DNA of 46,862 nt from Anaerolineae bacterium (GTDB lineage Bacteria; Chloroflexota; Anaerolineae; Aggregatilineales; Phototrophicaceae). The translations under genes were made by a program, and so were the position numbers. The stretch covers positions 1-46,862 of the forward strand of contig JALOOI010000006.1 of the NCBI GenBank assembly GCA_025454495.1, in the 5' to 3' direction. This document shows, in pieces, positions 578 to 29,727 of the stretch (position 1 is the stretch's first letter; every line of letters starts with the position of its first letter). The notes beneath the pieces were generated by a model that worked only from the letters and a program-made list of their open reading frames with translations, had not been told where the DNA came from and searched no databases.

Positions 578-1555
578 TCAGCGCCCCGGAATGATGAGCG
601 ACTGCCCGGTGTAAATCTGGTTCAAATTCAGCAGCCCGTTGGCCTGGGCGATGCTGTAAATGTTCACCCGAAAATCTGCGGCGATGGCGAACAGGTTATC
701 GCCAGGCTGCACCAGGTAACGCCCGTTGACCACGCGGCGCGGCAGCACCGGGGCCGGCGGCGCGGGCGGGGCCGGGGGCTGCACGATGGGGCCGCCGGTG
801 GGCGGCACGGCCAGCACCTGCCCGGCGAACAACTGCGACGGATTAACGATGTTGTTGAACTGGCGCAGGCTCTCCGGCGTAACCCCCAGGCGCAGCGCAA
901 TGCCCGACAGCGTATCGCCCCGCTGCACCACGTAAATACGCGGCGGAACGGCCGGCGGCACCACCACCGGCGGCGCGGGCGGTACCGGCGTGGCCACGGG
1001 CCCGCCCACCGCCGGGATCACCAGCGTCATGCCGGCCATGATGCGATTGGGATCGGTGAGGTTGTTGGCCGCGGCCAGCGCCTGCCAGGTGGTGCCGTAG
1101 CGCTCCGCGATGATCCGCAGCGTTTCACCGCGATCCACCACATGCGTGCGGGCGAAGGTGGTGGGGCCGCCCACGGCCGGCAGCCGCAGCACCTGCCCCG
1201 CCACCAGCGTGGCCCCGGCCGCCAGGTTATTGGTCTGGCGCAGGGCCTCCACCGTGGTATTGTAGCGCAGGGCAATATCCGTCAGCCGTTCCCCCGGCTG
1301 CACCACATGCTGCGCCGGCGGCGTGAGCACGCTGCCAGGGATCACCAGCACCTGCCCGCGGCGAATGCGATTGGGGTCAATGATGCTATTGCGAATCAGC
1401 AGCGCCTCCACCGACACATTAAAGCGGCTGGCAATCGACTGGATCGTATCGCCCGGTTGCACGGTATAACTGCGCTCGGACTGGGCCGCAGCGGGCAGCG
1501 CCGCCAGCAGCAGCAGCAGCGCCACAATAAGCATCGACAGACGGCGGGCCAACAT
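578..1555 (-). CDS. Secreted protein with five LysM domains
   Basis: 325 residues: an N-terminal signal peptide (hydrophobic run ending AAAQ, about residues 6-25), then five LysM repeats of about 45 residues separated by Pro/Val-rich linkers. Each repeat opens with a form of YxVQxGDT and closes with a form of GQxLxIP. LysM modules bind N-acetylglucosamine polymers such as peptidoglycan. There is no attached catalytic domain, so it is probably a wall or envelope binding protein. I chose the ATG at 1553-1555 because GGAGG sits 5 nt upstream and it begins the signal peptide; an upstream in-frame ATG at 1609 would add 18 non-signal residues. The arginase-family gene follows after 2 nt. Confidence 0.9.
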   Translation of the reverse strand: MLARRLSMLIVALLLLLAALPAAAQSERSYTVQPGDTIQSIASRFNVSVEALLIRNSIIDPNRIRRGQVLVIPGSVLTPPAQHVVQPGERLTDIALRYNTTVEALRQTNNLAAGATLVAGQVLRLPAVGGPTTFARTHVVDRGETLRIIAERYGTTWQALAAANNLTDPNRIMAGMTLVIPAVGGPVATPVPPAPPVVVPPAVPPRIYVVQRGDTLSGIALRLGVTPESLRQFNNIVNPSQLFAGQVLAVPPTGGPIVQPPAPPAPPAPVLPRRVVNGRYLVQPGDNLFAIAADFRVNIYSIAQANGLLNLNQIYTGQSLIIPGR

Positions 1556-18186: not shown

Positions 18187-19431
18187 ATGAAACGCCTGAT
18201 TCTGGTTTTTGTGATGGGCCTGCTGCTGAGCGCCTGCCAGCCGTCGCGGGCGCTGCCCACGGCCATTGATCTGGCCGCAGCGGCCGATGCCGCGGCGCAA
18301 ACGGCCACTGCCGCCGCGCCCACCGCCAGCGCGACTCCGCGGGCGCTGCCACCCACTTTCACGCCCACCGTCACCGCCACCGACGCGGCCACCCCCGCGC
18401 CCATCCCCACCCGCACCCCGGCCGGCTACCAGGGCGCGGGCACGCTCTACTACATCTACAATGGCGATGCCATCGCCGCGGTGGATGGCGACGGGCGCAA
18501 TAACAACCTCATCGTCACGTTTGGCGTGGGGCGCACCCTCAGCGATCTTACCCTGTCGCCGGATGAAACGCTGCTGGCCTATGTCGCGCCCGGCAATGGC
18601 AGCGCCCGCGAGGTCTTCATCAGCAGCCGCGATGGCACCTACACCCAGCAGGTCTCCTGCCTGGGGCTGGCGGATGTGCGCCAGGTGACCTGGCTGCCGG
18701 ACGGTCAGCAGCTCGCCTTCTTCGCGGCAGCGCAGCCCGGCGCAGCGGGGGATATTTACATCGCCTCCTACATCGGCGCGAACACCTGCCCGGAGGGCAA
18801 CGGCCAGCGCGTGCTGGTGCCGCTGCAAAGCCCCGATCTGCGCGGGCTGACGTTTACGCCGGATGGCCGCATTTTGTATTACGCCGGCGGCGGCAGCGAT
18901 ATTTACGCCTGGGACATCGCCACCGGCAACCGGGCCCGCCTCACCTTTGCCAGCAGCGATGGCAGCGATTTCGCGCCGGTGCATCACCCGGTGACGGCCA
19001 CGCTGGCCTATTTACGCACCCGCCGCGCCGAAGCCACCGGCCTGCCCGGCGGGGCGCTGGTGCTGCTGAACAATACCGCCCGGATGCCCGCGCAGCCGGC
19101 CAGCCCGCCCGGCGATTTTCTGAACGCCACCGGCTTACGCTGGAGCGCCACCGGCGGGCTGCTGCTCATCACCACGCCCAACCAGGTTTACACGCTGGAC
19201 AGCACTGATGGTGAACTGACGCTGCTCACCGGCAGCACCCTGGTGAACCCGCAGGCTGCCGCCCGCCCGGACCTGCGCGAAATTGCCTTCACCACCACCG
19301 ACAGCCAGGGCGTGCGCCAGCTTTACATCGTCAACCGCGACACCGGCAGCACGCGCCAGCTTACCGCCAACCCCGAAGGCACCATCACCGACCCGGTGTG
19401 GGCCGCGCCGCTGCCCCCGGAGGACGCATGA
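18187..19431 (+). CDS. Lipoprotein with TolB/WD40-like beta-propeller repeats
   Basis: 414 residues. The signal sequence ends in LLLSAC, so Cys17 is lipidated. An Ala/Thr/Pro linker (about residues 30-80) leads to a beta-propeller built of PD40-type blades, seen as repeated LSPDETLLAYV, FTPDGRILYYA and similar S/T-P-D-G strands with AYLRT and AFTTT edges. Such propellers bind ligands or proteins in the periplasm or outside the cell. GGAG lies about 9 nt before the ATG. Its TGA overlaps the ATG of the next gene (ATGA), implying coupled translation and a shared role. Confidence 0.85.
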   Translation: MKRLILVFVMGLLLSACQPSRALPTAIDLAAAADAAAQTATAAAPTASATPRALPPTFTPTVTATDAATPAPIPTRTPAGYQGAGTLYYIYNGDAIAAVDGDGRNNNLIVTFGVGRTLSDLTLSPDETLLAYVAPGNGSAREVFISSRDGTYTQQVSCLGLADVRQVTWLPDGQQLAFFAAAQPGAAGDIYIASYIGANTCPEGNGQRVLVPLQSPDLRGLTFTPDGRILYYAGGGSDIYAWDIATGNRARLTFASSDGSDFAPVHHPVTATLAYLRTRRAEATGLPGGALVLLNNTARMPAQPASPPGDFLNATGLRWSATGGLLLITTPNQVYTLDSTDGELTLLTGSTLVNPQAAARPDLREIAFTTTDSQGVRQLYIVNRDTGSTRQLTANPEGTITDPVWAAPLPPEDA

Positions 19432-20438
19432 GCCACCCGCTGCTGAACCGCTACCCCACGCCGCCGCACCACCCCAACGATCCGCGCAGCCGCCCGCGCC
19501 CGCCTTACGGGCCGCCCCCGCCGCCCGACCGGCGGCCGGAGCCGCTGACGCGCAACGTGCTGATGATTACCCATAACCCGGTGCTGCGCTCCCAGGGCGG
19601 GGCCACCCTGCGCGATTTCTTCGGCTGGTACGAGCCGGATGAACTGGCCGCCGCCTGCATTGACGATTTGCACTTCGCCACCTATGGCTATGCCCGCTAC
19701 AGCATCACCGAAAAGATCGTGGTGGATGGCTACCCGGTGAAGCGCGACGGTTTTCGCTACGATGAACACAGCTATCTGGAAGCCTGGCGCACGCGCCGCT
19801 TTCATGAGCCGGACGGGGTGGATTATCTGCGGCTGGTGGAGGAATTTAACCTCATTCCACGCCTGAACAGCGGCGCAATCGATGAGGTGTGGCTGTTTGG
19901 CCATCCCTATGGCGGCTACTACGAGTCGATCATGGGCGGGCCCGGCGCGTTCTGGTGCAATGCGCCCGCGCTGGCCGGCACCGAACACGCGCACCGCCGC
20001 TTCGTCATCATGGGCTTCAATTTTGAGCGCGGCGTGGGCGAAATGCTGGAGGACTTCGGCCACCGGGCCGAATCCATCCTGGCCAGGGTGTTTGAACAGG
20101 TGCCGCCCCCCGCCAATCTGTGGGCGCAGTTCATCCGCTGCGACCGGCACCAGCCAGGGGCTGTGACCGAATGCGGCAATGTGCATTTCGCCCCCAACAG
20201 CGAGCATGATTATGACTGGGGCAACCCGCGCCCGGTGCTCAGCCGCTGCGATACCTGGTACCACTTCCCGGATTTGCGCGGCGAACCGCGCCCCGTCACC
20301 TGCCAGGAATGGGGCGACGGCGCGATTCGCCTGCATCATCTGTGGTGGTTTCGCCATTTTCCGCACCTTAAAGGCGCGGCGGATGGCATCGCCTGGAACT
20401 GGTGGCAGTATATTCTGGATCCGAACACCGTTCCGTAA
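19428..20438 (+). CDS. Conserved protein of unknown function
   Basis: 336 residues, no signal peptide. The first 40 residues are Pro/Arg-rich, then a well-ordered sequence rich in aromatic residues, His and Cys (NVLMITHNPVL, FGHPYGGYYES, NVHFAPNSEHDYDWGN, a WNWWQYILDPN ending). The paired Tyr/Trp and polar clusters suggest a folded enzyme or sugar-binding domain, but I cannot name a family. The start ATG overlaps the lipoprotein stop by 4 nt, with GGAGG 4-5 nt upstream. It is convergent with hisS, with 11 nt between the stops. Confidence 0.8.
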   Translation: MSHPLLNRYPTPPHHPNDPRSRPRPPYGPPPPPDRRPEPLTRNVLMITHNPVLRSQGGATLRDFFGWYEPDELAAACIDDLHFATYGYARYSITEKIVVDGYPVKRDGFRYDEHSYLEAWRTRRFHEPDGVDYLRLVEEFNLIPRLNSGAIDEVWLFGHPYGGYYESIMGGPGAFWCNAPALAGTEHAHRRFVIMGFNFERGVGEMLEDFGHRAESILARVFEQVPPPANLWAQFIRCDRHQPGAVTECGNVHFAPNSEHDYDWGNPRPVLSRCDTWYHFPDLRGEPRPVTCQEWGDGAIRLHHLWWFRHFPHLKGAADGIAWNWWQYILDPNTVP

Positions 20439-20449
20439 GCGGGCCGAAT

Positions 20450-21787
20450 TCAGGCGGGCAGCAGGTGGCGCAGCGCGGCCGGCAGGTCGGCGCGGGGAAC
20501 GGTGGTTTCGCTGGCATCCGCCAGGCGCTTCACCTTCACCACCCCCTGCGCGATCTCGTCACTGCCCAGGATGACCACCAGCGGAATACGCTTTTTATCG
20601 GCATATTCAAATTGTTTGCCCAGCTTCAATTTACCCTCGGCCATGTACAGCTCGGTGCACAGGCCGGCGGCGCGTAATTCGGCCGCCAGCCGGGTGGACT
20701 CAGCGCGGGTATCTTCGCTGAAGATCGTCACCAGCGCCTGCACCACCGTACCGCCGATGTGGGCCGGATACAGGTTGAGGTCGTCCATCAGGTCAATGAA
20801 GCGCTCAATGCCCAGGGAGATGCCGGTGGTGGGCAGGCTCTCCTTGCGGAACATGCCAATCAGTTGATCGTAGCGGCCGCCGCCGCTGATGCTGCCCATA
20901 CCACCGCCTTTGAAGACGGCTTCAAAGATGGGGCCGGTGTAATAGCCCAGGCCGCGCACCATGGTAAAATCGAATTCGTAGAAGGCGGGCGGTATGTTCA
21001 GCGCGGCCATGTGCTGCGCCATGTCGCGCAGTTCGGCGATGCCCTCGCGGGCTTCGGCGCTGCCCTGCATCAACGTTTCGGCGGCATCCAGCGCGGCCAG
21101 GCCGGGGCCCTGCGCCTGGAGCAGCGTCATCATGCGGGCCACCACCGCCGGCGCAATGCCGCGGCCGCGCAGTTCCTCGGCCACGCCGTCCGCGCCAATT
21201 TTGTCGAATTTATCCACGCTGCGGTACAGGTCGGCCAGTTGGGCAGTCTCCACCCCGGCATACTGCCCCATGCCCGTCAGCAGCTTACGATTGTTGATCT
21301 TCACCACCACCTCGACAAAGCCCAGGCGTTGCAGCACCGTCACCAGCAGGCTGATGAGTTCGGCATCGGCGGCCATGCTGCCCACGCCCACAATATCAGC
21401 ATCGCACTGGTAAAATTCGCGGTAGCGGCCGCGCTGCGGCCGTTCCCCGCGCCACACCGGGGCGATCTGGTAGCGGCGAAAAGGAAATTTGAGGTCATTT
21501 TCGTACTGGGCCACCACCCGCGCCAGCGGCACCGTCAGGTCATAGCGCATGGCCAGCGGGTCTTTATCGCTGCGGCCGTGCTGCGCTTCAAAGATAAGCT
21601 GTTCGGCATCTTCGCCATATTTGCCGAACAGCGTTTCGCGCAGTTCCAGCACCGGCGTTTGCAGCGGCTCAAAGCCGTAGCGGTGAAAGACCTCGCGGAC
21701 GGTGGTGATGACGTAATCGCGCTTGAGCATCGCTTCCGGCAGAAAATCGCGGAAGCCTCTGGGCAGGCGGGGCTTAAGGTGAGGCAT
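20450..21787 (-). CDS. hisS: Histidyl-tRNA synthetase
   Basis: 445 residues, a class II synthetase that charges tRNA-His. Visible signatures: PRGFRDFLP at the N terminus, RYDLTVPLAR in motif 2 surroundings, RGERPQRGRYREFYQ (motif 2 and the histidine-specific region), RGLGYYTGPIFE (the HisA-type signature) and GISLGIERF (motif 3), then the C-terminal anticodon-binding domain. AAGGA lies about 10 nt before the ATG. About 150 nt of leader separates it from the upstream methyltransferase and carries a His-codon leader peptide and attenuator, so its expression is probably tuned by His-tRNA charging. Confidence 0.96.
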   Translation of the reverse strand: MPHLKPRLPRGFRDFLPEAMLKRDYVITTVREVFHRYGFEPLQTPVLELRETLFGKYGEDAEQLIFEAQHGRSDKDPLAMRYDLTVPLARVVAQYENDLKFPFRRYQIAPVWRGERPQRGRYREFYQCDADIVGVGSMAADAELISLLVTVLQRLGFVEVVVKINNRKLLTGMGQYAGVETAQLADLYRSVDKFDKIGADGVAEELRGRGIAPAVVARMMTLLQAQGPGLAALDAAETLMQGSAEAREGIAELRDMAQHMAALNIPPAFYEFDFTMVRGLGYYTGPIFEAVFKGGGMGSISGGGRYDQLIGMFRKESLPTTGISLGIERFIDLMDDLNLYPAHIGGTVVQALVTIFSEDTRAESTRLAAELRAAGLCTELYMAEGKLKLGKQFEYADKKRIPLVVILGSDEIAQGVVKVKRLADASETTVPRADLPAALRHLLPA

Positions 21788-21830
21788 ATGGCGGCATCCT
21801 TGTCTGTGCGTGCATGACGAATGGCAGAAT

Positions 21831-21856
21831 CAAAAACAGCGCGACCGGCATCGCGC
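21831..21856 (-). terminator. Attenuator terminator in the hisS leader
   Basis: On the minus strand GCGCGA (21856-21851), loop TGCCGG and TCGCGC (21844-21839) form a perfect 6-bp GC-rich stem immediately followed by TGTTTTTG. It sits between the leader-peptide stop and hisS, 44 nt before the hisS ATG, so it would end transcription before the gene. Confidence 0.75.
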
Positions 21857-21884
21857 GGGAACAGGCACGGGCGGGATGCGGTCA
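21842..21884 (-). promoter_or_regulatory. Antiterminator pairing in the hisS leader
   Basis: On the minus strand TGACCGCATC (21884-21875) can pair with GATGCCGGTCG (21852-21842) through nine base pairs and a single bulged C. This consumes the loop and parts of both arms of the terminator hairpin, so the two structures are mutually exclusive. The first partner begins about 8 nt after the leader stop codon, where a ribosome at the stop would cover it. Confidence 0.65.
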
Positions 21885-21892
21885 GGCGGGTA

Positions 21893-21934
21893 TCAGGCTG
21901 AAGGGTGGTGGTGTGAACGCTGTTCTGTCATCAT
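21893..21934 (-). CDS. His-rich leader peptide of hisS
   Basis: A 13-codon frame, MMTEQRSHHHPSA, with three consecutive CAC codons at positions 8-10, a stop at 21893 and hisS about 105 nt further on. It parallels the hisL attenuation peptide of enteric bacteria in design, here before a synthetase gene. Its first ATG falls at the predicted transcription start, so it would be a leaderless message. A stalled ribosome on the His codons would leave the antiterminator segment free; a ribosome reaching the stop would mask it. Too short for standard gene callers. Confidence 0.75.
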   Translation of the reverse strand: MMTEQRSHHHPSA

Positions 21935-21940
21935 GGCTTC

Positions 21941-21970
21941 AGTATACGCCAGCGGCCGGGGGGCTGGCAA
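21941..21970 (-). promoter_or_regulatory. Promoter of the hisS leader
   Basis: On the minus strand TTGCCA (21970-21965), an 18-nt spacer and TATACT (21946-21941). Six nucleotides separate the -10 from the first leader ATG, which would place +1 at or next to that A. The promoter lies just before the stop of the upstream methyltransferase gene. Confidence 0.7.
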
Positions 21971-21989
21971 CCGCCAGTCTCGCCCGGCC

Positions 21990-22769
21990 CTACGCGGGGC
22001 CGGCCAGGTGCTGGCGCTGCGCTTCAAACAGGATGACGGTGGCGGCCATGGCCGCATTGAGCGATTCTGTGCCGGCGGCCATGGGGATGGCGATGCGGGT
22101 GGCGTTAAGCCGGGCGGCCGGCCGGGCCCCGTGGGCCTCATTGCCGATGATGAGCGCGTGCGGGCTGCGCCAGTCCACCGCGCTGTAGGGCTGTTCGGCA
22201 TCGCCGGCGGCCAGGTACACCGTCACCGCTTCGCAATAGGTGGCGATCTCCGTCCAGGCGGCTTCCACCAGCGGCAGCCGGAAATGGGCCCCCATGCCGG
22301 CCCGCAGCACTTTGGGGTTGTAGGGGTCAACGCATTCCGGGGCCAGCAGCACCACCTCCACGCCGGCCGCCGCGGCCGTCCGCAGCAGCGTTCCCATATT
22401 GCCCGGTTCGCGCACGGCATCCAGAATGAGGATGCGCCCCGGCTGGCGCGGCATTCGCGGCATGGGCAGCGGGAAGACAGCGATCATGCCCTGGGGCTGC
22501 TGCGTTTCGCTGGCGTGCTTAATGACATCCGGCGCGGCCGGCATCAGCACCGCCCGCGTCGCCTGGAGCGCGGCCACCAGTTCATAATCGGCCGTTTGCA
22601 GGTCATACAGCACAAAATCCGGCACATGGCCGCACAGCAGCGCATCGCGGATGAGGCGTGCGCCCTCCAGCGGAATTTTGCGTTCCTGGCGGCGGGCGCG
22701 GGCGCTCTTTTGCAGCGCGGCGGCCAGCTTCACACGGGTATTTTGCAGGCTGGTGATGACATCGTTCAT
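21990..22769 (-). CDS. SpoU/TrmH-family RNA 2'-O-methyltransferase
   Basis: 259 residues. An N-terminal substrate-binding domain (RRQERKIPLEGARLIRDAL) precedes the knotted SPOUT methyltransferase domain. Its motifs are present: motif 1 around LDAVREPGNMGTLLRTA, motif 2 around LIIGNEAHG, and motif 3 around IAIPMAAGTESLNAAMAA. The family methylates a ribose 2'-OH in 23S rRNA or tRNA (RlmB or TsnR like); the site is not predictable. GGAGG lies 7 nt before the ATG at 22767-22769; the ATG two codons earlier overlaps the ribosome site. It follows the infC-rpmI-rplT operon terminator and precedes hisS. Confidence 0.9.
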   Translation of the reverse strand: MNDVITSLQNTRVKLAAALQKSARARRQERKIPLEGARLIRDALLCGHVPDFVLYDLQTADYELVAALQATRAVLMPAAPDVIKHASETQQPQGMIAVFPLPMPRMPRQPGRILILDAVREPGNMGTLLRTAAAAGVEVVLLAPECVDPYNPKVLRAGMGAHFRLPLVEAAWTEIATYCEAVTVYLAAGDAEQPYSAVDWRSPHALIIGNEAHGARPAARLNATRIAIPMAAGTESLNAAMAATVILFEAQRQHLAGPA

Positions 22770-22802
22770 GGGCATTCCTCCGGGCCGCCCGGCGGTTGAA
22801 TC

Positions 22803-22826
22803 AAAACAGGGTCATTTTCGACCCTG
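22803..22826 (-). terminator. Terminator after rplT
   Basis: On the minus strand CAGGGTC (22826-22820), loop GAAAAT and GACCCTG (22813-22807) form a perfect 7-bp stem followed by TTTTGATT. It lies 28 nt past the rplT stop and closes the infC operon. Confidence 0.8.
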
Positions 22827-22854
22827 CCTGAGGACTGCGCCGGGTAGCGGCGGC

Positions 22855-23208
22855 CTATTGGTGCTGCTGGCTGAGCGCCGCCAGCTTGCGGAAAGTGTCG
22901 GCATCGCGCACGGCCAGGTCGGCCAGCATTTTACGATCCAGCTCCACGCCGGCCTGCTTCAGCCCGTAGATAAAGCGGCTGTAGCTGAGGCCGTTCAGGC
23001 GGGCGGCGGCGTTAATCCGCACGATCCACAGGCGGCGGAACTGACGTTTGCGGGCGCGGCGGTCGCGGTAGGCGTACCACAGGCTTTTGAGCATGGCTTC
23101 ATTGGAGCGGCGGAACAGCGTCCCGCGGGACAGCCACTGCCCTTTCACCATCTTCTTGATTTTGTTGTGCCGCCGGCGGCGGACGACACCGGTCTTTGAT
23201 CTTGGCAT
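22855..23208 (-). CDS. rplT: 50S ribosomal protein L20
   Basis: 117 residues, the standard length. L20 binds 23S rRNA early in large-subunit assembly. The basic N-terminal extension ([10 protein letters not shown]) and the conserved [17 protein letters not shown] region are present. It is the last gene of the conserved infC-rpmI-rplT operon, 74 nt after rpmI, and is followed by a terminator. In Escherichia coli and Bacillus subtilis L20 or its partners repress this operon by binding the leader; a comparable leader was not identified here. Confidence 0.97.
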
Positions 23209-23282
23209 GGTGTTGCGGCTCCTTCAACAGCCGGGGACAGCCGTTTGCGCCCCGGTGCGTGCATAACAGAGGTAAGACCGGG

Positions 23283-23540
23283 TCAGGCCGGCGGGTTGGC
23301 TTTGTACTTGCCCAGGTAAGGGGCCAGAATGCGAATGCGCCGGGCGAAGGCTTTGTTGCCCACCGTCGTCACTTTGTCCAGCGCCCGCTTCACCCGCCCG
23401 GACTTACGGCGGCGGAAGTGGCTTTTGCCGCCGCGGGTACGCACGACGATGCCGGTGCCGGTCACACGGAAACGCTTGGCGGTCGCCTTGTGCGTCTTCA
23501 GTTTATACTTCTTCGGGTCTTTCGTCTTTTTTCTGGTCAC
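23283..23540 (-). CDS. rpmI: 50S ribosomal protein L35
   Basis: 85 residues, about 20 longer than the usual 64-66. The core KTHKATAKRFRVTGTG and a run of basic residues identify it. The extra length is an N-terminal Lys-rich stretch (TRKKTKDPKKYKL) and a C-terminal KYKANPPA. The start is GTG at 23538-23540 with AAGGG 4 nt upstream; there is no later in-frame ATG before the core. It lies 19 nt after infC. Confidence 0.93.
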   Translation of the reverse strand: MTRKKTKDPKKYKLKTHKATAKRFRVTGTGIVVRTRGGKSHFRRRKSGRVKRALDKVTTVGNKAFARRIRILAPYLGKYKANPPA

Positions 23541-23559
23541 GTTGCCCTTACTCCGCGTG

Positions 23560-24111
23560 TTATTTCTTCTCGGCCAGCGGCGCGAGGATCATGAGCATAT
23601 CCCGCCCTTCCATATTGGGGGACTGCTCCACCTGCGCCACATCGCTCAACAGTGTTTTAATCTCATCCAGGGTTGCGCGTCCCAGATGCGAATGGGTAAT
23701 TTCGCGGCCGCGAAAGCGCACCCGCACCCGCACCTTCATCCCTTCGACCAGCCATTCCCGCGCCTGCTTCAGCTTAAAACCAATGTGGTAATCATCGGTT
23801 TTGGGTTTAAGCTGAATTTCCTTGATTTCTACCTTAACCTGATTCTTGCGGGCTTTGCGCTCTTTGCGCTGCTGTTCATACTGAAATTTGCCATAATCCA
23901 TCACACGGCAAACCGGCGGGCTGGCATCCGGCGCAACTTCCACCAGGTCCATGCCCATGTCCGACGCAATTTCCAGCGCGCGTTCCAGAGACACAAGTCC
24001 CATATTGCGCGAGGTTGGCGGGCCGTCTTTTTCTTTATTTTCTTCTTCGACGATCAGCCGAACTTCACGCGCACGTATTTCACGATTAATACGGTAATCC
24101 GAGGCAGCTAT
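23560..24111 (-). CDS. infC: Translation initiation factor IF-3, probable AUA start
   Basis: 183 residues from the proposed start. IF-3 binds the 30S subunit, prevents premature 50S joining and rejects non-canonical start codons. The N domain (DYRINREIRAREVRLI), linker (DYGKFQYEQQRKERKARKNQ) and C domain (KTDDYHIGFKLKQAREWL, VRVRFRGREITH) are complete. The frame is open back to an ATG at 24183, but that ATG has no ribosome site and lies inside the best promoter. ATA at 24111 has GAAAGGG 7 nt upstream and gives the usual IF-3 length. Non-AUG starts (AUU, AUC) are known for infC and let IF-3 repress itself. Confidence 0.9.
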   Translation of the reverse strand: MAASDYRINREIRAREVRLIVEEENKEKDGPPTSRNMGLVSLERALEIASDMGMDLVEVAPDASPPVCRVMDYGKFQYEQQRKERKARKNQVKVEIKEIQLKPKTDDYHIGFKLKQAREWLVEGMKVRVRVRFRGREITHSHLGRATLDEIKTLLSDVAQVEQSPNMEGRDMLMILAPLAEKK

Positions 24112-24173
24112 TGCTTTGCCCTTTCGAACACTTTTTACTGACGGGAATGGCTGTGCTGGAACAGCGCCGACAA

Positions 24174-24202
24174 ATCGTAGCATAAAGGCCGGTGGTGGTC
24201 AA
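24174..24202 (-). promoter_or_regulatory. Promoter of infC-rpmI-rplT
   Basis: On the minus strand TTGACC (24202-24197), a 17-nt spacer and TACGAT (24179-24174). The start would be near 24167, downstream of the ATG at 24183 and about 55 nt before the AUA codon. Confidence 0.6.
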
Positions 24203-24303: not shown

Positions 24304-25725
24304 TTAACGCACCGGCAGGGTATCCAGCGCGGCCTGGGCTTCTTCAAAAGCGTTGATGGCGGCATCCACAAACTGCGCCTGGGTGGTGGCGATCTGCGTG
24401 AGGGTGGCGGGGGCGGCGCAGGCGGCTTCAAAGGCCTGCCAGGACTGGCGCGACAAATCCAGCCCGGTATTGATGTTGACGGTAGCCTGTTGCAGCACCG
24501 GCACTTCTGCGCCCAGGTCGGGCGGAAGCTGGTAATCCTGCGGCAGGCCGGGGGCGGGCAGCGTGAGGCAGCCGGCGGTTGCGCCGGTGGTGACGACATC
24601 CGTCCAGTACGCCCGCAGCACAATCATATGCCCGCGGGAGCCGATCATGGTATCAATGATCTGCTGCATCCCCAGGCGCTGCGAGCGAATATCGCGCGGA
24701 TCGACCGTGGGCGAGGGGGTGACGGTGATGGTGGGCGTAAGCGAAGGCGTGGGCGAGGGCGTGGCGGTCATCGGCGCGGGGGTGGGCGGCACCGTGACCC
24801 CGGCCCCGGCCAGGATACCGGGCAGCACATTCATCCCCGCCTGGGCCAGGGTCAGTTCGCCGGCCAGGCGGCTGGCTTCGGCGGCCGTCAGCGCCGGTGT
24901 GGCCAGGCAGTGATTGCTGAGCGCCTGGCGGGCACCGCTGTAGGCCGTTTCGACGGTGGCCAGCGTGTCGGCGGCCTGCACCAGGGCCGGGCTGGCCGCG
25001 GCCACCTCCGCCGGCACGGTCAGCGGCACGCGCTCGATGGGCGTATTAAGGACGGTGCAATCCGGCGGGGTGCCGCTGCTGATGGCCGCCAGGGCCAGTT
25101 GCACGCCGTTAATATCTGCGCTGAGGCTGAGATAATCCGCGCTGAGCTGCTGTGCCACCGCCTGCGCAGAGGCCGGCGCGGCCGCCACTTCCAGCGTGGG
25201 GGTGGTTTCCGGCGCGGGGCCGGCATCACCGCCGCCCCCGCCGAGCAGGGCCCCCACCAGCAGCAGCAGGACAAAGCTCAGCGTGAGGCCCACCATCGCC
25301 CGGCGCAGCGTGGCTGGCTTCACCCGGGCCGGCCGGCCCGGCTGCCGCGTCTCCACGATCTCCTGCAACAGGTCGGCGGCGTACTGGCGAATTTCCTCAT
25401 CGTCATTTTCCAGCGCTTCTTGCAGCGCCCGGAACATGCCCAGCGATTGGGCCGCCGCTTCTTTTATGCCGGGCGTTTTATCTTTCTGGTACACCAGCAC
25501 CAGCGGCTCGATGGCTTTAATCTCGCCCAGTTCCCCCAGCCGCCGCACCGAGGCCAGCCGTTCTTCCGCTTTATACTTTTTCGGCGCTTTGATGATGGCA
25601 ATATGACGATCTACGTCCTGCATAAAGACAGCGAGCTTGCGCTCAAAATCGTCATCTCCGCCGGACGCGGCATCATCATCCAGACCTTCCAGGATCTCAT
25701 CGTCCTGTTCAGCTTGTGGCGGCAT
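24304..25725 (-). CDS. HEAT-repeat membrane protein with extracellular domain
   Basis: 473 residues. The N-terminal 130 residues are cytoplasmic: an acidic head (LEGLDDDAASGGDDD), then HEAT-like helical repeats (RLASVRRLGELGEIKAIEPL, KEAAAQSLG, RQYAADLLQEI). One membrane helix (about 146-162) follows, then a helical extracellular region split by a Thr/Pro linker (TPSPTPSLTPTITVTPSP). The arrangement suggests a scaffold joining a cytoplasmic partner to an envelope domain. Function unknown. GAGAGGAAACCG precedes the ATG. Confidence 0.75.
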   Translation of the reverse strand: MPPQAEQDDEILEGLDDDAASGGDDDFERKLAVFMQDVDRHIAIIKAPKKYKAEERLASVRRLGELGEIKAIEPLVLVYQKDKTPGIKEAAAQSLGMFRALQEALENDDEEIRQYAADLLQEIVETRQPGRPARVKPATLRRAMVGLTLSFVLLLLVGALLGGGGGDAGPAPETTPTLEVAAAPASAQAVAQQLSADYLSLSADINGVQLALAAISSGTPPDCTVLNTPIERVPLTVPAEVAAASPALVQAADTLATVETAYSGARQALSNHCLATPALTAAEASRLAGELTLAQAGMNVLPGILAGAGVTVPPTPAPMTATPSPTPSLTPTITVTPSPTVDPRDIRSQRLGMQQIIDTMIGSRGHMIVLRAYWTDVVTTGATAGCLTLPAPGLPQDYQLPPDLGAEVPVLQQATVNINTGLDLSRQSWQAFEAACAAPATLTQIATTQAQFVDAAINAFEEAQAALDTLPVR

Positions 25726-29640: not shown

Positions 29641-29727
29641 CGGAAGAGGAGGGATTCGAACCCTCGATACCCTCTCAGGTATACCCGTTTTCGAGACGGG
29701 CCCATTCAACCGCTCTGGCACCCTTCC
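29641..29727 (-). tRNA. tRNA-Ser(CGA)
   Basis: 87 nt. Acceptor stem GGAAGGG pairs with CTCTTCC with one G-U. The anticodon stem CCCGT/ACGGG encloses loop CTCGAAA, giving anticodon CGA, which reads UCG. A long variable arm (TACC, loop, GGTA) marks a class II tRNA. T arm GAGGG-TTCGAAT-CCCTC. The discriminator base is G, as expected for serine, and the CCA end is not encoded. Confidence 0.95.

Follow-up and report, generated by a model that had tools for sequence, protein, structure and literature searches.

Is the histidyl-tRNA synthetase gene (hisS) of this Anaerolineae bacterium controlled by a short histidine-rich frame lying in front of it, and does such a control still operate in this genome? 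In the stretch of 46,862 nt analysed here (hereafter the window), the site lies on the minus strand, in the 202-nt gap that separates hisS from a SpoU-type methyltransferase gene (21990-22775). The gene order at the locus (20450-24183, minus strand) is infC, rpmI, rplT, SpoU methyltransferase, hisS, and this hisS is the sole one above the TIGR00442 cut-off in the genome. The order parallels that of the attenuated synthetase operon pheM-pheST in E. coli, which likewise follows infC-rpmI-rplT; in the window it is hisS that comes after these genes and the SpoU methyltransferase. Two other frames flank the region, one of 346 aa convergent to hisS (19398-20435, plus strand; no Pfam match) and one of 473 aa upstream of infC (24307-25725, minus strand; no NCBIfam match).

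An earlier note on this DNA had proposed a complete His-codon attenuator at this site, made up of a promoter, a 13-codon frame with three His codons, a segment able to pair with the terminator loop (nine pairs, one bulge) and a GC hairpin followed by TGTTTTTG. All of these parts were found on the minus strand (Table 1). The 5' part reads TTGCCA-N18-TATACT-GAAGCC-ATG ATG ACA GAA CAG CGT TCA CAC CAC CAC CCT TCA GCC TGA, with a spacer of 18 between the two promoter elements, and the TGA is followed by TACCCGCC TGACCGCATC, 18 nt and then GCGCGATGCCGGTCGCGC TGTTTTTG. The segment TGACCGCATC can pair with GATGCCGGTC(G) through 9-10 pairs with one bulge, as proposed. The leader ATG is located at 21934, six bases past the -10 element, so the usual +1 would be the A of this ATG.

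Table 1. Positions within the window of hisS and of the parts of its leader
Feature	Position	Strand	Basis
hisS, histidine--tRNA ligase, proposed regulated gene	20450..21787	-	TIGR00442, 382 bits, cut-off 287
-35 element TTGCCA (TTGCAA in relatives)	21965..21970	-	sequence; relatives keep TTGCAA-N17-TATACT
-10 element TATACT, ends 6 nt before leader ATG	21941..21946	-	sequence; relatives
Leader peptide frame MMTEQRSHHHPSA, 13 codons, leaderless by promoter position	21893..21934	-	relatives have His-run frames in this position
Three consecutive His codons CACCACCAC, proposed stall site	21905..21913	-	sequence; alignment of relatives
Segment 2, 5' half of antiterminator, TGACCGCATC	21875..21884	-	pairs with terminator apex; homologous pairs covary
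Segment 3 GATGCCGGTC, terminator loop and upper stem, partner of segment 2	21843..21852	-	pairing
Terminator hairpin GCGCGATGCCGGTCGCGC, -10.9 kcal/mol	21839..21856	-	prediction; homologous stem paired in relatives
U-rich tail TGTTTTTG	21831..21838	-	sequence; also in sister species
Shine-Dalgarno-like AAGGA before hisS	21797..21801	-	read by eye in sequence

To compare this arrangement with that of relatives, 98 genomes of the family (Chloroflexota, Anaerolineae) were used for whole-genome searches, and 88 upstream regions were anchored on the hisS start. The regions were scanned for a short frame with a His pair whose end lies within 60 nt of a terminator. A His-run frame just before a terminator was detected in 31 of the 87-88 family hisS upstream regions, while Met came next in the same scan with 6 and every other residue gave 5 or fewer. 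Among 1740 shuffles of the family regions, none contained a His frame together with a terminator. The element has no counterpart in about two thirds of the family. The earlier note had pointed to hisS upstream regions of relatives as the place to look for His-rich short frames and a paired terminator and antiterminator, and both were found there.

Comparison of the relatives revealed a common layout. The typical order is TTGCAA-N17-TATACT, the frame, a stop codon overlapping GACCAACG, about 25 nt, and AGCGCAGAC-GTTG-GTCTGCGCT-TTTTTT, in which the pairing partner of GACCAACG is CGTTGGTC, the loop and upper part of the terminator. The dedicated promoter is part of the conserved leader. The leader frames have about 10-18 codons with 2-6 His codons (for example MICHHHHGNAYPC, MAFPHHHHAQMEIG, MNRHHHLRLNR and MSIHHHTLIR), and segment 2 usually starts 13-26 nt past the last His codon.

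The pairing of both helices was analyzed in a plain MAFFT alignment of 31 leaders, which was not fitted to structure. In the antiterminator helix, 80.6% of cells were paired, compared with at most 46% when the helix was slid, and double changes were present in 8 of 8 pairs. In the terminator helix, 97.8% of cells were paired, with double changes in 5 of 9 pairs. The antiterminator uses columns 88-96 and the terminator stem is formed by 80-88/94-102; because columns 88 and 94-96 of the stem are common to both, the two helices compete. Within the His run, CA is kept at codon positions 1-2 and the third position is C or T.

These features would allow the following switch. When charged tRNA-His is ample, the ribosome would run to the stop codon and mask segment 2, which the stop overlaps in most relatives; the terminator would then fold and transcription would stop. 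When charged tRNA-His is short, the ribosome would wait on the His codons and leave segment 2 free, and the free segment would capture the emerging terminator apex, so that hisS would be transcribed. We calculated the folding of 29 leaders with the ribosome edge placed 13 nt past the first base of the A-site codon. In this calculation, which leaves out pseudoknots and kinetics, a ribosome on the His codons gave a mean probability of 0.82 for apex-upstream pairing (partial transcript) and 0.33 for the full terminator, and a ribosome at the stop gave 0.24 and 0.86, respectively. The expected direction was obtained in 27 of the 29 leaders and the reverse in none, so the stall and stop geometry described by the earlier note holds for the family. 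A smaller set from outside the family showed the contrast in the same direction, more weakly. In about one third of the leaders the terminator wins at equilibrium even with a stalled ribosome, so antitermination in these leaders would be kinetic, with the antiterminator forming first.

A conserved His attenuator of hisS is well supported, because the scan, the covariation, the occurrence in other families and the ribosome-position folding all speak for it. In this respect the main claim of the earlier note stands: the His-codon attenuator before hisS is real, and it is conserved in many genera and in four families of the order. We consider it likely that the element is a ribosome-mediated transcription attenuator of hisS, a conserved RNA of one Chloroflexota order, and that the window copy is a divergent, leaderless member of it.

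How far the switch survives in the window is a separate matter, and the function of the window copy is uncertain. In the window's genus the attenuator may have degenerated, with the His leader staying while the switch is lost and hisS is expressed constitutively or controlled otherwise (by Rho or at translation); this is a serious possibility, to which we give somewhat less than even weight. Several peculiarities of the window copy speak for such a loss. Counted from the first base of the stop codon, segment 2 starts 11 nt downstream, and a ribosome at that codon would barely reach it, covering one or two of its bases; here the stall and stop geometry of the earlier note fails. Because of this position of the stop, the switch is predicted to lean towards read-through. 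Folding predicts a terminator probability of about 0.00-0.03 with the ribosome at either His or the stop, and the terminator appears only with the ribosome edge at about stop+18 or beyond. Additionally, the window stem is the weakest of 15 compared, and the T tract is broken by a G. The motif TGACCG lies 20 nt past the last His codon where 21 would be in frame, and the window stop has thereby lost the overlap with it that most relatives have. A one-base deletion is a possible cause of the early stop; in four other leaders (L039, L060, L068 and L080) the frame likewise stops a few bases upstream of segment 2 and out of frame with it. Covariance model R3, which was trained on the other copies, gave no match at 21829-21922, and a score of 23 bits for the window was discarded, as the model behind it had included the window copy.

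The sister species (L007) adds to both sides. Its leader encodes the six-His peptide MIIFNIHPHQHHPHSH and shares the TATACT-N6-ATG start and the TGTTTTTG stretch with the window copy, while no recognisable terminator stem or antiterminator was found in it, and another mode of control is possible there. Against a complete loss of the switch, the parts of the window copy are all still in order, with 23 nt from the last His codon to segment 2 as in relatives, and the pairing of segment 2 with the apex exceeds chance (the hairpin-apex match of the flank was equalled in 4 of 1000 flank shuffles). Furthermore, the promoter, the start and the His run persist in both species. Position, part order and spacing suggest the kinship of the window copy with the Chloroflexota hisS leader RNA. 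The attenuator called complete in the earlier note has its parts in order, but the model trained on the other copies misses it and its sister lacks a recognisable terminator, so the word is too strong for the window copy. Read as written, the window switch would lean to read-through and may have become weak or altered, or be in decay; the window's genus may have a weakened or changed switch.

It is improbable that the leader works mainly on hisS translation or via Rho instead of intrinsic termination. Such an action would fit the sister leader with no intrinsic terminator and the variable spacing from terminator to hisS among relatives (24-173 nt). However, the terminators of relatives have strong GC stems with covarying pairs and T tracts behind them, and the conserved alternative helix breaks the terminator, not the hisS start.

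Chance was evaluated for the window copy as well. The promoter TTGCCA-N18-TATACT is the only promoter-like site in 1 kb, where 0.1 is expected. One terminator was found against 0.9 expected per kb, which by itself is not significant, and the folding energy of the whole 144-nt leader showed no gain over shuffles (z 0.5), which is uninformative. A His-triplet frame with a terminator appeared in none of 3000 dinucleotide shuffles of the 330-nt upstream region. The combination of the window parts is significant, though the terminator alone and the whole-leader fold are not. It is thus very improbable that the terminator of the upstream gene and an accidental His triplet simply coincide in a GC-rich stretch; the frequency of such terminators and the lack of excess stability agree with coincidence, whereas the shuffles, the 31 relatives with a His-run frame in this position and the covariation do not, and for the family the chance reading is already refuted. 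Slightly less probable still is a functional small His-rich peptide, for example a metal-binding one, which the runs of 2-6 His residues would suit, since the peptides share no sequence outside the His run and what is constrained is the RNA pairing and how far segment 2 lies from the His codons.

Returning to the attenuator, a further point of the earlier note was a leaderless leader frame. Concerning LEADERLESSNESS, the distance from the -10 element to the start was bimodal in 43 leaders with a clear promoter. In 9 of the 43 it is 6-11 nt, and 8 of these 9 have no Shine-Dalgarno motif; in the remaining leaders the frame starts 19-52 nt from the -10 element, and about half have a Shine-Dalgarno motif. 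The short class covers both species of the window's genus, in which the -10 element ends 6 nt before the ATG and no Shine-Dalgarno motif is present, and also members of other genera. It is credible that leaderless leader frames, as judged from promoter position only, are a recurrent minority form of this RNA (about 8 of 43). For the window, the leaderless frame is plausible and common to the sister species, with the 5' end placed by the promoter.

To determine how widely the RNA is spread, covariance model R1 was searched against genomes of the family and the order, which gave matches in 33 of 98 family genomes (12 of 24 genera) and in 44 of 154 genomes of the order. Three further families of the order (f2, f3 and f5) also have the element before hisS, with weak matches. 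Eight weak matches (L214-L218 and L222-L224) lie directly upstream of hisS and all have His-run frames. In L219 and L230, which also have His-run frames, the match is followed by a low-molecular-weight phosphotyrosine phosphatase (LMWPc) gene and then, further downstream, by hisS, which suggests an operon of the two genes under His control. A third match before an LMWPc gene (L221) also has a His-run frame, and the DNA covered for it contains no hisS; these three leaders belong to another family of the order. In L217 (match 905-1001, plus strand) the gene behind the leader is of a distant hisS type with 35% identity to that of the window; the leader may have survived a replacement of the gene, or may have passed from one HisS type to another. 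Seven weak matches (L211-L213, L220, L225, L231 and L232) were rejected as false after each was read. In L232 (about 1400-1600), a gene end encoding DHDHHNHNHAH followed by a terminator had produced the false match to the leader model, which calls for caution in His-run searches.

Beyond the order, no true match was found in samples of 396 and 400 genomes from the class and phylum, in which few candidates were scored per genome, and this is weak negative evidence for absence outside the order. Similarly, 30 hisS upstream regions from other Anaerolineae families contained no His leader with a terminator; the HisS there is of a different type (25-32% identity). The Rfam search gave no leader match in the window at the gathering or a relaxed threshold and none in ten loci, and no match to the T-box model at either threshold; Rfam is without this RNA family. 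A tRNA gene (29641-29727, minus strand) is the sole Rfam match in the window at the gathering threshold. With the same scan, for which the 31 of 88 hisS regions served as positive control, no His leader was found at 30 hisG loci, where about 1.5 kb upstream was covered and a leader before hisZ could be partly missed, and no Phe or Trp leaders were found at 30 pheS and 30 trpS loci.

More tentatively, and with less than even confidence, we propose that the RNA is an order-wide regulator of hisS outside Rfam whose antiterminator takes the terminator apex and not the 5' arm, and that several lineages, that of the window included, are leaderless, so that the switch would need leaderless initiation in addition to charged tRNA-His.

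Most known cases of leader-peptide attenuation come from Proteobacteria, Actinobacteria and some Firmicutes, and no report of it in Chloroflexota was found in the literature examined. The mechanism is of a known kind with close precedents. In Bacillus, a His leader peptide has been predicted for hisS* and hisZ (Naville and Gautheret 2010, PMC2965389). The two systems have in common a short frame with a His run and a transcription attenuator upstream of a hisS-family gene; they differ in phylum and in the gene served, which is a paralogue in Bacillus, where the main hisS has a T-box, and the only hisS here. His leaders of the his operon occur in gamma-proteobacteria and also in Firmicutes lineages (PMC9413887). 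These share with the present leader the tandem His codons, the terminator opposed to an antiterminator and the coupling of translation to transcription, whereas the target here is hisS and not biosynthesis, with no similar leader near hisG, and the partner of segment 2 in the Chloroflexota RNA is the terminator apex together with the top of the 3' arm.

Leader-peptide attenuation of aminoacyl-tRNA synthetases is likewise represented by pheST of E. coli, where it is established (Springer et al. 1985, cited in PMC4082710), and by trpS and leuS of Streptomyces, where it is predicted (PMC1262725); amino acid, enzyme and RNA differ from those described here. For leaderless leaders, the trpL transcript of Sinorhizobium meliloti starts directly with the leader frame (PMC7298713), and a study of leaderless transcripts put forward the Cys-rich upstream frames of mycobacteria as attenuators (PMC4633059). 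Those cases concern other amino acids and genes, and leaderlessness in our RNA is read from promoter position only. The earlier note had called a leaderless leader controlling a synthetase a distinct arrangement, a view that is not supported: the leaderless leader is a minority form of this RNA, and both His-leader control of a hisS gene and leaderless leader peptides have been described before. As far as the literature examined shows, what is new is the occurrence in Chloroflexota, a conserved, unlisted RNA serving the sole hisS, an antiterminator aimed at the apex, and the repeated leaderless forms.

The finding would extend leader-peptide attenuation to another deep phylum and to a sole histidyl-tRNA synthetase. 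The intact relatives are a ready comparative set, and the recurring leaderless form would offer a natural experiment on whether a timing-sensitive attenuator can work with leaderless initiation.
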